A stretch of DNA of 64,000 nt from Thysanoteuthis rhombus (Eukaryota > Mollusca > Cephalopoda > Oegopsida > Thysanoteuthidae). The stretch covers positions 2,859,586 through 2,923,585 of the forward strand of contig OY735225.1 of the NCBI GenBank assembly GCA_963457665.1, written 5' to 3'. This document shows, one piece after another, positions 9,564-62,575 of the stretch. Every line of letters starts with the position of its first letter. The first letter of the stretch is position 1. Position numbers and translations under genes: made by a program. The notes beneath the pieces are model-generated. The model was not told the origin of the DNA, did no database searches, and saw nothing but the letters and a program-made list of their open reading frames with translations.

Positions 9564-10245
9564 AGTCTTTTAACATCTGCTGTTGGACATAGACCTTCCC
9601 CAGGATTCGCCACAATTCTCTATCATGGGCATTGTGGAGCCAGTATTTCCTAGATTTGTCTAGTTCATCTTTCCATCTTGTGTTCTGTCGGCCTTAGTTT
9701 CGCTTGTGATCTCTGGGGATCCATGTTGTAAGTTGTGATGTCCATAGGTTGTCTTTCATTCTTGCAACATGGCATGCCCATTGCCATTTTGATTTTTCAA
9801 TAGTTTCTATGATTTCTCGGACTCCCGTATTCTTCCTGATATACTGTGCTGTCTTGTGATCTCTCCAAGTAAGGTTGAGCATGGTTCTCTCACGCATGCG
9901 TCACACAGGTCCTCAGTTTGTGGGTTTGTCTCTTGGTTAGGTTCCATGTTTCAGCTCCATAAGTGACTATTGGGAGAATGCACTGGTTATATACTCTTCT
10001 TTTTAGGATTATTGGGATTGTCTGGTTTTTTAAAGTTGAGCTTGCTCTGCCAAATGGTTGCCACCCTAGAGTGATTCTTCGCTTGATTTCATCCTCTTTT
10101 GAGGGTCTCATGGAGATTCGTTGTCCTAGGTAGATGTAGTGGTCTACCTTGCTGAGTTTTGCATCTTCTTTCTTGACAGTTATGTCCTTATTCTCAATAT
10201 GATTGTTGCACATTAATCTGATCTGTTCAATCTCTTATTTAGATG
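9538..10245 (-). mobile_element. RTE-like LINE, 5'-truncated 3' end with (TGA)n tail
   Basis: - strand frames give DAKLSKVDHYIYLGQRISMR, RRITLGWQPFGRAS, RRVYNQCILPIVTYGAETWN and, after a frameshift near 9890-9900, ERTMLNLTWRDHKTAQYIRK, EKSKWQWACHVARMKDN and WTSQLTTWIPRDHKRN. The frame continues through RWKDELDKSRKYWLHNAHDR to VYVQQQMLKD and a stop, then a (TGA)n tail at 9538-9563. These are the C-terminal motifs and microsatellite tail usual for RTE-type LINEs. It lies in the last CCDC43 intron, antisense to the gene. Confidence 0.8.
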
Positions 10246-22998: not shown

Positions 22999-23340
22999 GA
23001 CCTACATATACTATGAATTTCAAAGTTATCATTCAAAGAGAGATCAAACATATTTCATCATGAAGGGTGTTGGCAGGTTGCATTGTTTTATGAAATATAT
23101 ATGTATACAAACACACACTAACATTCGCTCACTCGACATTAAACATTCACACATGTACTGATAAATAAATATAACAGTAAAATAAACAGAGCGCGGCCTA
23201 AAATATTGAATGAGATCAGGAATTAAAACAGCAGATAGATGGACCACCAATTCAAATGACATTAGATCCCTTTCTTTGCAAAATAATTATCAACATATAT
23301 ACATAAACATTTGGAAAAAATATTCATTTTTCTATACTTA

Positions 23341-29285: not shown

Positions 29286-29391
29286 TTAGTCTATCAGAAA
29301 AAATTCCTCATCCAGATGAGTTCCACGAGAAGCTTCGTTTGGTTTTGTTTCACTTGAGAATTGGTCCAATGGAAAGGTTTCTGATCTAGTC
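29286..29391 (-). CDS. Clavesin-like terminal coding exon
   Basis: Too short for a simple ORF scan. Acceptor tgttttattgtttcag precedes 29391. The single leading G completes the AA left by the previous donor, giving K, then TRSETFPLDQFSSETKPNEA, SRGTHLDEEFFLID and TAA at 29286-29288. Phase, a good polypyrimidine tract and an acidic-hydrophobic tail ending in a stop support it as the last exon. Vertebrate clavesins also end with a variable hydrophilic tail after the CRAL-TRIO domain, with little sequence conservation, so the call rests on splice phase and coding appearance. Intron to the previous exon is about 8.4 kb. Confidence 0.75.
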
Positions 29392-35694: not shown

Positions 35695-37150
35695 AATGTG
35701 TTACTGTATTTGTCTCAACTGGACCCTTCCTTCTCTAAGCTAAACTCAAATGTATTCACATTCTCTGCAGTGACTATGGCTTTGCTCAGACAGTTCCAGT
35801 CTAATGTCACTCTTGCTGTGAAAAACTGTTTCTTTGCAACAGTTTCAAGTTGTGTTTATAGTTTGTATATGTAGCATCTTGTATGTTTTCTTTGGAAAAT
35901 TCAGCATGTGTTTGAGTATATAGTCAATGCTCACTGTTGTGGCCCTGAGTGTTGGTCTACGCTCACTGTTGTGGCCCTGAGTGTTGGTCTACGCTCACTG
36001 TTGTGGCCCTGAGTGTTGGTCTACGCTCACTGTTGTGGCCCTGAGTGTTGGTCTACGCTCACTGTTGTGGCCCTGAGTGTTGGTCTACGCTCACTGTTGT
36101 GGCCCTGAGTGTTGGTCTACGCTCACTGTTGTGGCCCTGAGTGTTGGTCTACGCTCACTGTTGTGGCCCTGAGTGTTGGTCTACGCTCACTGTTGTGGCC
36201 CTGAGTGTTGGTCTACGCTCACTGTTGTGGCCCTGAGTGTTGGTCTACGCTCACTGTTGTGGCCCTGAGTGTTGGTCTACGCTCACTGTTGTGGCCCTGA
36301 GTGTTGGTCTACGCTCACTGTTGTGGCCCTGAGTGTTGGTCTACGCTCACTGTTGTGGCCCTGAGTGTTGGTCTACGCTCACTGTTGTGGCCCTGAGTGT
36401 TGGTCTACGCTCACTGTTGTGGCCCTGAGTGTTGGTCTACGCTCACTGTTGTGGCCCTGAGTGTTGGTCTACGCTCACTGTTGTGGCCCTGAGTGTTGGT
36501 CTACGCTCACTGTTGTGGCCCTGAGTGTTGGTCTACGCTCACTGTTGTGGCCCTGAGTGTTGGTCTACGCTCACTGTTGTGGCCCTGAGTGTTGGTCTAC
36601 GCTCACTGTTGTGGCCCTGAGTGTTGGTCTACGCTCACTGTTGTGGCCCTGAGTGTTGGTCTACGCTCACTGTTGTGGCCCTGAGTGTTGGTCTACGCTC
36701 ACTGTTGTGGCCCTGAGTGTTGGTCTACGCTCACTGTTGTGGCCCTGAGTGTTGGTCTACGCTCACTGTTGTGGCCCTGAGTGTTGGTCTACGCTCACTG
36801 TTGTGGCCCTGAGTGTTGGTCAACGCTCACTGTTGTGGCCCTGAGTGTTGGTAGGTCAAGATACAGTAAGTTTCTATCACATCAGCTTTTCTTTGTCTCT
36901 AGACAAGAGTTTGCATATCAAACTGTAATAATCTGCTAATGTGAGGGAGGTCTTGTTTGGCAACTAGTTTAGTGGCTCTCCTTTGAACTTTTTCAATCGC
37001 ATCTTGGCCATGTTTCAGTTGAGGAGACCATGCACAGAAGGTGTATTCTGGATGTGGGAAGACAAGGGATTTAAATACGAGAGTGAATATTTTCTTATTC
37101 ATGAATTTGAATGTGTGCCATAAAGATGTTAATATGAAAATTTTCACAAA
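35695..37150 (-). mobile_element. CR1/L2-like LINE 3' fragment split by a minisatellite
   Basis: On the - strand, 37147-36899 encodes reverse-transcriptase C-terminal sequence: LVFKSLVFPHPEYTFCAWSP, then DAIEKVQRRATKLVAKQ and a degenerate RL..L segment. After the 32-bp array, 35928-35695 continues with a frameshifted SFSQQE / ARVTLDWNCLSKAIVTAENV, matching the FFS.RVV..WN.LP..VV.A..VN.F ending of such LINEs. Stops and frameshifts show it is dead. Clade assignment is by motif memory only. Confidence 0.7.
35929..36852. repeat. 32-bp minisatellite, about 29 copies, inside a LINE remnant
   Basis: Near-perfect tandem array with a unit reading ctacgctcactgttgtggcc then ctgagtgttggt (32 bp; identical phase after 480 bp = 15 units). 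The first unit (caatgctcac) and one near the end (caacgctcac) differ slightly. On the - strand the unit continues the reverse-transcriptase reading of the flanking LINE fragments (...TYQHSGPQQ, then a stop). Because 32 is not a multiple of 3, the array breaks the frame. It lies in the clavesin intron between 29391 and 37805. Confidence 0.95.
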
Positions 37151-37804: not shown

Positions 37805-37989
37805 TTAAAGTTGCCATGATTTGGCCAGTAAATGTGTTTGTCTCCAAAACTGAAGTTTTCGTCTCCAATTAACTGCTTCGCCCAATATTGATTGTTGTAC
37901 GGTGGTTCCAGTCCTCCTAATTCTGCCGGAAGGACTTCTTTGTGGATATGTTGATGAAGTGTGGTTAAGTTGATTCCATGCATGAAAAT
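37805..37989 (-). CDS. Clavesin-like exon (end of CRAL-TRIO domain)
   Basis: Acceptor acaattgttcag; phase 0 start IFMHGINLTTLHQHIHKEVL, then PAELGGLEPPYNNQYWAKQL, matching the clavesin segment LHQ.IHPEILPSEFGG..PPY....WA. It continues GDENFSFGDKHIYWPNHGNF and meets a strong donor AA/gtaagt at 37805/37804, leaving phase 2. Without splicing the frame is AAG TAA, an immediate stop at 37801-37803. The donor joins in perfect phase to the terminal exon at 29391, so splicing is favoured. Confidence 0.9.
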
Positions 37990-40784: not shown

Positions 40785-40895
40785 CTTATCACGATTCTTC
40801 TCCTTTAGGAAAGGTTTGATCATTTTAAAAATGGCTTCGATGTACCATGGTTGATTAATAAAGTGTATTCCACCAAATCTCGCAGGAAAACAATC
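40785..40895 (-). CDS. Clavesin-like exon (CRAL-TRIO core)
   Basis: Exactly 37 codons between acceptor tttttattcaaag and donor gtgagtag, phase 0 on both sides. It encodes [20 protein letters not shown] and then [17 protein letters not shown]. Joined to the previous exon this gives the clavesin signature [21 protein letters not shown], part of the lipid-binding pocket, with FLKEK before the next junction as in vertebrate clavesins. The preceding intron is about 17.5 kb and the following one about 2.8 kb. Confidence 0.92.
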
Positions 40896-56430: not shown

Positions 56431-58398
56431 TTGCAATCATTAGATATTTGCTTTTACGAAATACATCAACCAACAAGTAACCCTTCAAACATTGAAGATT
56501 CACTCTTGTAAAAGACATTGACCAAACAGTAACCCTTCAATCATAAAAGATTCACTCTTGTAAAAGACATCGACCAAACAGTAACCCTTCAATCATTAAA
56601 GATTCACTCTTGTAAAAGACATCGACCAAACAGTAACCCTTCAATCATTAAAGATTCACTCTTGTAAAAGACATTGACCAAACAGTAACCCTTCAATCAT
56701 TAAAGAGTCACTCTTGTAAAAGACATTGACCAAACAGTAACCCTTCAATCATTAAAGATTCACTCTTGTAAAAGACATTGACCAAACAGTAACCCTTCAA
56801 TCATTAAAGATTCACTCTTGTAAAAGACATTGACCAAACAGTAACCCTTCAATCATTAAAGATTCACTCTTGTAAAAGACATTGACCAAACAGTAACCCT
56901 TCAATCATTAAAGATTCACTCTTGTAAAAGACATTGACCAAACAGTAACCCTTCAATCATTAAAGATTCACTCTTGTAAAAGACATTGACCAAACAGTAA
57001 CCCTTCAATCATTAAAGATTCACTCTTGTAAAAGACATTGACCAAACAGTAACCCTTCAATCATTAAAGAGTCACTCTTGTAAAAGACATTGACCAAACA
57101 GTAACCCTTCAATCATTAAAGATTCACTCTTGTAAAAGACATTGACCAAACAGTAACCCTTCAATCATTAAAGATTCACTCTTGTAAAAGACATTGACCA
57201 AACAGTAACCCTTCAATCATTAAAGAGTCACTCTTGTAAAAGACATTGACCAAACAGTAACCCTTCAATCATTAAAGAGTCACTCTTGTAAAAGACATTG
57301 ACCAAACAGTAACCCTTCAATCATTAAAGATTCACTCTTGTAAAAGACATTGACCAAACAGTAACCCTTCAATCATTAAAGATTCACTCTTGTAAAAGAC
57401 ATTGACCAAACAGTAACCCTTCAATCATTAAAGAGTCACTCTTGTAAAAGACATTGACCAAACAGTAACCCTTCAATCATTAAAGAGTCACTCTTGTAAA
57501 AGACATTGACCAAACAGTAACCCTTCAATCATTAAAGATTCACTCTTGTAAAAGACATTGACCAAACAGTAACCCTTCAATCATTAAAGATTCACTCTTG
57601 TAAAAGACATTGACCAAACAGTAACCCTTCAATCATTAAAGATTCACTCTTGTAAAAGACATTGACCAAACAGTAACCCTTCAATCATTAAAGAGTCACT
57701 CTTGTAAAAGACATTGACCAAACAGTAACCCTTCAATCATTAAAGATTCACTCTTGTAAAAGACATTGACCAAACAGTAACCCTTCAATCATTAAAGATT
57801 CACTCTTGTAAAAGACATTGACCAAACAGTAACCCTTCAATCATTAAAGATTCACTCTTGTAAAAGACATTGACCAAACAGTAACCCTTCAATCATTAAA
57901 GATTCACTCTTGTAAAAGACATTGACCAAACAGTAACCCTTCAATCATTAAAGATTCACTCTTGTAAAAGACATTGACCAAACAGTAACCCTTCAATCAT
58001 TAAAGATTCACTCTTGTAAAAGACATTGACCAAACAGTAACCCTTCAATCATTAAAGATTCACTCTTGTAAAAGACATTGACCAAACAGTAACCCTTCAA
58101 TCATTAAAGATTCACTCTTGTAAAAGACATTGACCAAACAGTAACCCTTCAATCATTAAAGAGTCACTCTTGTAAAAGACATTGACCAAACAGTAACCCT
58201 TCAATCATTAAAGATTCACTCTTGTAAAAGACATTGACCAAACAGTAACCCTTCAATCATTAAAGATTCACTCTTGTAAAAGACATTGACCAAACAGTAA
58301 CCCTTCAATCATTAAAGATTCACTTTTGTAAAAGACATCGACCAACAAGTAACCCTTCAACCATTAAAGATTTGCCTTTACAAAAGACATCATCTTAC
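56431..58398. repeat. 52-bp minisatellite, about 37 copies, in the clavesin intron
   Basis: The period is exactly 52 bp: line patterns recur at 780-bp (15x52) offsets. The unit contains gtaacccttcaatcattaa, then a-gattcactcttgtaaaag and acattgaccaaaca. The middle copies are nearly identical apart from a T/G variant (agattc versus agagtc); copies at both edges are more diverged (catcaaccaacaagt; cactttt). The array runs into the 3' end of the clavesin exon on the right, where the same 19-bp word (one mismatch) is exonic sequence. See findings. Confidence 0.95.
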
Positions 58399-58829
58399 CT
58401 GTAAGCCTTCAATCATTAACTTGAGTATCTTTGGATTCAGCCACGTTGATTGTTTAAAGGTAAATTGACTCCAATCAACAATAATCACAAATCCGTTGAT
58501 TTGTGTCTCTTCATCATCGATCAGTTTTTCTAAAGTTAGTAAGATTGCCCGGTAGATGGCAGCCAGTCCATACCGTGTATTGTCCCAATTGGCAGAGTAG
58601 AGCACCAAGATTTTGCGACCAAAATGGTCATGGTGGGGCAATACCCCGGGGAGTCCGTCAAATAAAGCTTCTTTGGTGCTTGGCTCAGCAGCCTGAAATT
58701 TGCGGAACAAATTGCTGTTCTCTTGTCGGTACTCGAAATATCGCGTATAGAGCTTGAATGCTTCACATACATCGAATTTTCTAGCTCGTAGAAATCGAAG
58801 AATGAACACATCGTCAGTTCGCAGGAAAT
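58399..58829 (-). CDS. Clavesin-like exon (CRAL-TRIO N-terminal helix and first part of lipid-binding domain)
   Basis: 143 codons of a clavesin (CLVS1/CLVS2-type) Sec14/CRAL-TRIO protein. Acceptor ttgtcttgcag lies just right of 58829; the first two bases complete a split codon, then [20 protein letters not shown] (CRAL-TRIO N motif), [63 protein letters not shown] and [10 protein letters not shown]. It ends CAG/gtaagatg, phase 0, at 58399. In vertebrates clavesins bind PtdIns(3,5)P2 and act on late endosome/lysosome morphology from clathrin-coated membranes in neurons; the role here is by homology. The 52-bp minisatellite abuts and overlaps the 3' end of this exon. The N-terminal exon was not found between 58830 and 64000. 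Confidence 0.92.
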
Positions 58830-60156
58830 CTGCAAGACAAATAAAAAGGTAACATAAATCGAACAAACATATAAAAATCAAATTAATTTCCACACCTTGC
58901 CTGTTTACAAAAGTAACAAATGTATGTTATATGGATGTGAGGTAATCCGACAAAACCATGGTAGTAACTTGACAATGTGAAAGTGAAAGATTTAAGAAAA
59001 AGTCTGTTACACCTCAAAAATTTCTAATATCATAAAGACAGGCATGATGCATTTTGCTGAAATTTCATTAACATTTTCAAGAAGCACTTTTGCAACGCTG
59101 GAAAAGTGCAGTAAAATGAATTCTTCACACATCTGCATGTCATGAATATGGGGAAATGTATGTAGTAATTTTAGTGTTGGTTGTTGGAGGAGAGAAAGGA
59201 GGAAGAATATCCAAGGTTTGAGTAAGAAGCGGTCAAACTTGAGATGTTTGCCATCGCAGTAAGGATGAAGTGAGAAAGATGATATGTTTGTTTTGACTCT
59301 AAGGAATTGCAGATTGACATGTAAAAAAAAAAAATAAGATTTGTAAAGTAACATGAAAACAACTAGTAACATACCAGTATCTAACAGTATACTTTAAGGT
59401 GGAAATCGAAAGCATTCATGGGCGTTGTCTGTAGTGTCCATCCCAAGCACTTGACCAAATTTTTCTCTCACAGACACTCAAAAGCAAGTTAAATTCCAAC
59501 TTATTTTACTTTCTCACCTATTTTCAACAGCTGGATTCAACCATGCCCCTCAAGTAAATATCCTCATGTTTAACCCCCCACCCCACCCTTTGGTGTACAC
59601 CTTCCTTGCATCTCTCTCCATCACTCCACCCTCTTTGCAGCCTTTGTGTTGCAATTTCATTCTCAGAATATCTCCTCTACCTTCTTCTGAGTAAAATTTG
59701 CATTTTCAAACGTGACAGACGGAAGTGTGACAGACAGAAGTGTATGGACACTTTGATTATTATAATATATATTAAAAAATTTGTTTTTAGATGTGATATT
59801 TGATATCATAGACATTTTTTGATATATTATGGTCCTTCAGAACATCCATATTATGAATTATTCACTTGATTCCAGAAATCAAAACAATTTCAATCTTTTG
59901 GTCTCCAAGCAAAAGAAATTAAACAAAATACATCATTTCTTATTTTCCCCTTCAGCTGAGATTTTAAAATATAACTTTATTCATCTTTAGGGTCATATCA
60001 TACTACATGTAGTTTGTTTTATTTTATATAGGGTATTGAGATAATTGAAATTATCAAAAATGATATTTTTTTATACGAAAGAATCATTTCATTTTCTTGA
60101 AAAACTTGGATTACATAGTTTACACAAAAACTGTAGAGGAGGGATTAATAAGTATA

Positions 60157-62399: not shown

Positions 62400-62575
62400 A
62401 GCCTTTGCTCCCAAACATAGAGATCAAGTTTTGTTTAAACATTGGCTACCAAATTTAGAGATCAAGTTTGGTTTGAGCATTTCTTATCAAATATAGAGAT
62501 CAAGTATTGCTTATCAATCAGTGATCAAATTTCGGTTAGGCATTTGCTAACAAACAGAGATCAACTCTATTCTGA
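62400..62575. repeat. Degenerate tandem repeat, about 4 copies of 45 bp
   Basis: The unit is close to gcatttgctaccaaatatag-agatcaagtttggttt, seen at 62404, 62443, 62481 and 62544 with substitutions. Confidence 0.6.

Follow-up and report, generated by a model that had tools for sequence, protein, structure and literature searches.

A 52-bp minisatellite at a clavesin exon–intron boundary in Thysanoteuthis rhombus, probably grown from the boundary after weakening of its splice donor

Boundary repeats in other animals

The original paper on mirages is said to be Canestro 2002. Mirages are tandem repeats that lie over exon–intron boundaries, and in amphioxus they occur in Adh3, the globin genes BflGb6 and BflGb9, TnC and PGBD5 (PMC3087553, PMC3902484; excerpts). 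Their units measure 10-72 bp for Adh3 and 150-160 bp for the globins, with inner units homogenised and edge units left out (excerpts of PMC3087553 and PMC3902484). AG/GT signals are present in many, not all, of these repeats, and the data suggest regular splicing (excerpt of PMC3087553). The array described here, which lies in a clavesin intron, resembles the amphioxus mirages in its boundary-spanning units, a unit length within their range, a homogenised interior and excluded edges. It differs from them in its host, a mollusc and not a cephalochordate, and in its size, with 38 units compared with 6 and 3 in two BflGb6 haplotypes. Moreover, none of the extra clavesin units keeps the donor, whereas many mirage repeats keep AG/GT, a trait that is common among mirages and not defining.

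Turri 1995 reportedly described a minisatellite with multiple splice donors in human IFI6. Two downstream repeat units of the minisatellite in this gene (6-16, G1P3) serve as donors (PMC4526556, excerpt). The clavesin array is like that of IFI6 in having minisatellite units that bear splice-donor sequence, and unlike it in that no extra unit keeps a donor.

Tandem genomic duplication that includes splice signals is a described route of intron gain (PMC4974935, PMC3443670; excerpts), and the excerpted text of PMC2812944 discusses boundary repeats as a possible cause of novel introns. The duplication proposed here would likewise be intragenic and include splice signals; unlike intron gain, it would have made an old intron merely longer. 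Indeed, intron gain was ruled out for this locus, as the intron position is old and common to a paralog (L004). Haber and Louis 1998 proposed that minisatellites originate from short direct repeats of 5-10 bp (via the excerpted text of PMC6947457), a seeding model also described in an excerpt of PMC3389668. A 9-nt in-register direct repeat at the edge of the clavesin array may be such a seed or, equally, the remains of a degraded partial unit; in contrast to the model, one member of the repeat pair belongs to a coding exon. Intronic minisatellites are also reported from an earthworm metallothionein gene, for which the excerpt names no boundary repeat (PMC12783039). Among the literature matches listed, as titles and abstract starts, there was no molluscan boundary array. 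The clavesin array joins a known kind; it is set apart by its mollusc host, by how large it is and by having no donor left in any extra unit.

The clavesin gene, its array and the donor states

The window (the whole stretch of 64,000 nt that was analysed) carries the clavesin gene on its minus strand, with an exon at 58399..58829 that gave the CRAL-TRIO Pfam hits PF00650 and PF03765 (Table 1). This exon also matched chains of retinaldehyde-binding protein 1 and of alpha-tocopherol transfer protein. Together with the two exons that follow, it showed 96% identity to the O. vulgaris clavesin-2-like isoform X2. The protein search returned 443 proteins at E <= 0.001, and the homologs used below come from the best 120 of these 443. 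The first coding exon of clavesin was not found within the 64,000-nt window. The last base of the exon is 58399 and the first base of the intron is 58398; the intron, which follows ...LMIEGLQ, is 17,503 bp long, and the array occupies its initial ~1,965 bp.

Tandem Repeats Finder placed the array at 56469-58372 (52 bp x 36.6 copies, 98% matches). Read in register with the exon boundary, the stretch 56444-58419 holds 38 full units, junction included, 37 of which are extra units; this copy number comes from a single assembly and may be an assembly choice. A preliminary description had counted "about 37" units of 52 bp and pointed to a motif that they share with the exon, gtaagccttcaatcattaa at 58401-58419, which indeed differs from the unit at one position in 19. 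It had also stated that the stretch before this motif matches over 14 bp. The 12-letter strings quoted for that stretch do match, at 10/12 positions, but the ~10 nt in between are the donor block and are mostly mismatched.

The repeats span the exon–intron boundary, and the inner units are homogenised, with only 4 distinct sequences (24, 8, 2 and 1) among 35, whereas K1 and K37 are divergent. The copy of the exon tail, which reads LMIEGLL in frame, is identical in 34/37 extra units. One variant is common to 8/35 inner units (56496-58315); a two-in-four pattern in its arrangement may reflect block duplications of about four units.

Table 1. Positions of clavesin exons, splice signals and array units in the window
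Feature	Position	Strand	Evidence
Junction unit k0, 21 exon nt (codons LMIEGLQ) + 31 intron nt, parent segment (putative)	58368..58419	-	
Proximal outer unit K1, donor CTT/GTTGGT	58316..58367	-	
35 homogenised inner units, donor CTG/TTTGGT	56496..58315	-	
Distal outer unit K37, donor CTT/GTTGGT, closest unit to junction (40/52)	56444..56495	-	
Distal edge CTAATGATTG, 9/10 to exon-tail start; putative seed repeat or remnant of a partial unit	56434..56443	-	
Clavesin CRAL-TRIO exon, end ...LMIEGLQ, phase 0 at 3' end	58399..58829	-	PF00650, PF03765, homologs, tblastn
Acceptor AG of clavesin CRAL-TRIO exon	58830-58831	-	
Authentic predicted 5' splice site CAG/GTAAGA	58393..58401	-	sequence; 9-mer also at boundary of paralog L004
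Clavesin exon after array-bearing intron	40785..40895	-	
Clavesin exon, IFMHGINL..., next after 40785..40895	37805..37989	-	
Last clavesin coding exon, ...THLDEEFFLID + stop	29286..29391	-	

The aligned donor 9-mers are CAGGTAAGA at the junction, CTTGTTGGT in K1 and K37 and CTGTTTGGT in the 35 inner units. CAG/GTAAG is found in no extra unit (0/37). The outer units (CTT/GTTGGT) retain GT in register, and the inner 35 (CTG/TTTGGT) have lost it. According to the preliminary description, the donor was replaced by TTACTGTTTGG in every unit; this holds for 35 of the 37 extra copies, but the two outermost read TTACTTGTTGG, with GT in register. Scored with human frequencies, the authentic donor reached 11.0 and CTTGTTGGT 0.5. 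On the same human frequencies, the inner 9-mer, which has no GT in register, scored -1.5 for a GT one base off, and the best of the other GT sites in the array, which follows 58324, scored 5.2 (once), with the repeated AGAGTGAAT next at 2.9. By these sequence scores, the units of the clavesin array are not predicted to serve as donors as those of IFI6 do.

Other repeats are present in the window. The clavesin intron that leads to the last exon contains a second minisatellite, at 35929-36852 (32 bp x 28.9 copies, 99% match); we ruled it out as a second boundary array, its unit having no window match better than E 4.8. A short 38-bp tandem repeat occupies 62407-62513 (2.8 copies, 78% match). The open frame at 9890-10234, which had no Pfam hit, presumably resembles the C-terminal part of a non-LTR reverse transcriptase.

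Proposed birth of the array and loss of the donor

We regard it as very probable that the boundary was duplicated, that the extra copy lost its donor early and that a form without GT then expanded. By this account, a 52-bp segment made up of the last 21 exon nt and the first 31 intron nt of clavesin would have undergone tandem duplication, with slippage or unequal exchange as the probable mechanism, acting on two short direct repeats 52 bp apart, TTAATGATTG in the exon and CTAATGATTG in the intron. The empty site before the array would read exon-CAG/gtaagatgatgtcttttgtaaaggcaaatct and then ctaatgattgcaaaatttg. The exon-nearest copy would have retained the real donor, and the extra copy would have gone from CAG/GTAAGA to CTT/GTTGGT, the state surviving at both array ends. 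One descendant would then also have lost GT (CTG/TTTGGT) and expanded to ~35 near-identical units. The array, carried in the intron, should be removed by splicing from the single real donor.

The distal edge CTAATGATTG and the exon-tail start TTAATGATTG agree at 9/10 positions in register and contain the 9-nt direct repeat TAATGATTG. A match of 9/10 occurs at 8 of 61,995 other places on the same strand. The direct repeat suggests that the first duplication was seeded by microhomology; the 9/10 in-register match at the distal edge is as for short direct repeats flanking the founding unit, and a worn partial unit would look alike.

For the order of events among the units, the best quartet, ((junction,K37),(K1,inner)), required 22 steps, compared with 26 and 27; this tree is independent of the majority ancestral unit. 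Four of the six sure changes on the founding branch, plus one ambiguous change, fall in the donor 9-mer, although the quartet is unrooted and these changes could belong to the junction side. By contrast, the K37, stem and K1 branches together have 0/11 changes there (Fisher p 0.006 versus the founding branch; p 0.014 with the inner branch added). Comparing single units with the junction gave weak clustering at the donor (p 0.033 for K1, 0.022 for K37 and 0.048 for the inner unit), and a scan permitting any 9-bp window gave p 0.045. All of these clustering tests are post hoc and involve few changes. A hypergeometric value of 0.002 was set aside because the ancestor behind it, a majority sequence built from the junction, K1 and K37, is biased towards the junction, and because a position left undecided had been scored as differing. 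We also rejected a mutational hotspot at the donor block, against which stand the 0/11 changes on the later branches, a small count.

Taken together, the quartet and the donor state common to the outer units indicate one founding unit that was already donor-weak. The donor was thus probably weakened before the array expanded, and the form that expanded appears to have lost GT in addition to the earlier donor changes. The preliminary description had proposed that only units without a working donor persisted. The absence of CAG/GTAAG from all 37 extra units agrees with this, but repeated filtering is unneeded when a single donor-weak founder is indicated.

The reading frame continues into the intron such that splicing from an array donor is expected to yield a truncated clavesin protein, which is a plausible reason for donor loss. 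Selection fits the loss of the donor; with one genome in view, chance or a single complex mutation is also possible. We offer as a tentative idea, somewhat unlikely as it stands, that the array preserves a trace of past selection against decoy donors, having expanded only after a two-step breakage from CAG/GTAAGA to CTT/GTTGGT and on to CTG/TTTGGT.

Nearly an even chance goes to a reading with the same exon origin, in which donor loss was a neutral accident (for example, one complex mutation in the founder) and played no role in the expansion. One mutation of GT is enough to kill a donor, so the 4-5 clustered changes exceed the need and could be one complex mutation, and the counts are few. 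Many amphioxus mirage repeats also keep AG/GT with regular splicing seemingly undisturbed (PMC3087553, excerpt). The concentration of changes at donor positions on the founding branch only speaks against such an accident, as does the additional loss of GT in the very form that expanded.

It is very unlikely that the array has a function in splicing or expression, with donor-less copies of the exon tail acting, for instance, as enhancers or decoys. The same exon-tail copy in 34/37 extra units and the near identity of the inner units would suit such a role, but recent homogenisation accounts for the likeness without function, and the stretch on the donor side shows nothing unusual in its predicted RNA folding (z -1.55; 11/200 shuffles as stable).

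Relation between exon and array

The junction equals each of the 37 extra units at 37-40 of 52 positions, and K37, 1.9 kb away, reaches 40/52 in register. At the 123,640 places of the window that lie outside the array (both strands), 52-bp matches went up to 31 for K37 and to 29 for the junction. These values bear out the view in the preliminary description that the exon–intron boundary is itself the last unit of the array. It had named as refuting a match no better than chance given the array length. The best 21-mer shared by exon and unit matched at 19/21 positions; among 1000 dinucleotide-shuffled versions of the exon (58399-58831 for this test), none scored 19 and one scored 18. Tandem copies stand beside only one of the seven clavesin exon boundaries found in the window, the array-bearing one. 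The array DNA had a single match in the 2.73-Gb genome (514 contigs), at its own locus, in a search that skips very common words.

We see hardly any likelihood of a chance resemblance, in which an unrelated intronic minisatellite or a dispersed-repeat fragment happened to lie beside the exon. Short matches do occur, as shown by an unrelated 18/21 match to the unit at 23157, and the genome search omits very common words. However, chance would have to produce the agreement in exact register of all 37 extra units, at a boundary that is alone among those of clavesin in having copies and with no other genomic copy reported.

The direction of copying can be read from the exon. E143, G144, Q146 and D147 at its end are invariant in 24/24 aligned rows, vertebrates included; the alignment comprises the window protein and 23 homologs hand-picked among the best 120 of 443. 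The usual form at the exon end in the molluscan rows is LMIEGLQDCFPARF. An O. vulgaris protein (P0001) reads LMIEGLQDCFPARF without an insert; its sequence differs from the window's and says nothing direct about the present allele. When the genome was searched with the exon and 7 candidates were scored, two diverged relatives emerged in addition to the exon, with 41% and 33% identity over parts of it. The exon of paralog L004 ends at the equivalent point, with the donor CAG/GTAAGA, and there is no tandem repeat in the 3,219 bp of this locus. The boundary and its donor therefore predate the array. Another CRAL-TRIO-like exon, at L003 1501-1728 (G000:C30:2987064-2987291), lies ~69 kb beyond the clavesin exon on the same contig and on the opposite strand, and has 41% identity over residues 3-80 of the clavesin exon.

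Because the exon end is conserved protein and the boundary is array-free in paralog L004, the exon is, on this comparative sequence evidence, the source of the array, in line with the duplication across the 5' splice site that the preliminary description had suggested. That the array came first, with the exon end copied from it by conversion or recruited from it as exon, is scarcely credible: sequence similarity is directionless and the unit tree unrooted, but the E, G, Q and D residues, unchanged in every one of the 24 rows with vertebrates among them, and the array-free boundary and donor of L004 speak against it.

The clavesin array extends boundary-derived minisatellites to a mollusc, beyond amphioxus and human IFI6. 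It offers a readable order of events, from the source exon through the weakened donor seen at both ends to the expanded form in which GT is lost, and would represent one route by which an intron gains ~2 kb from its own exon. If the pattern is general, duplicated boundaries may be free to expand into minisatellites, and so to make introns longer, only once their donor is dead.
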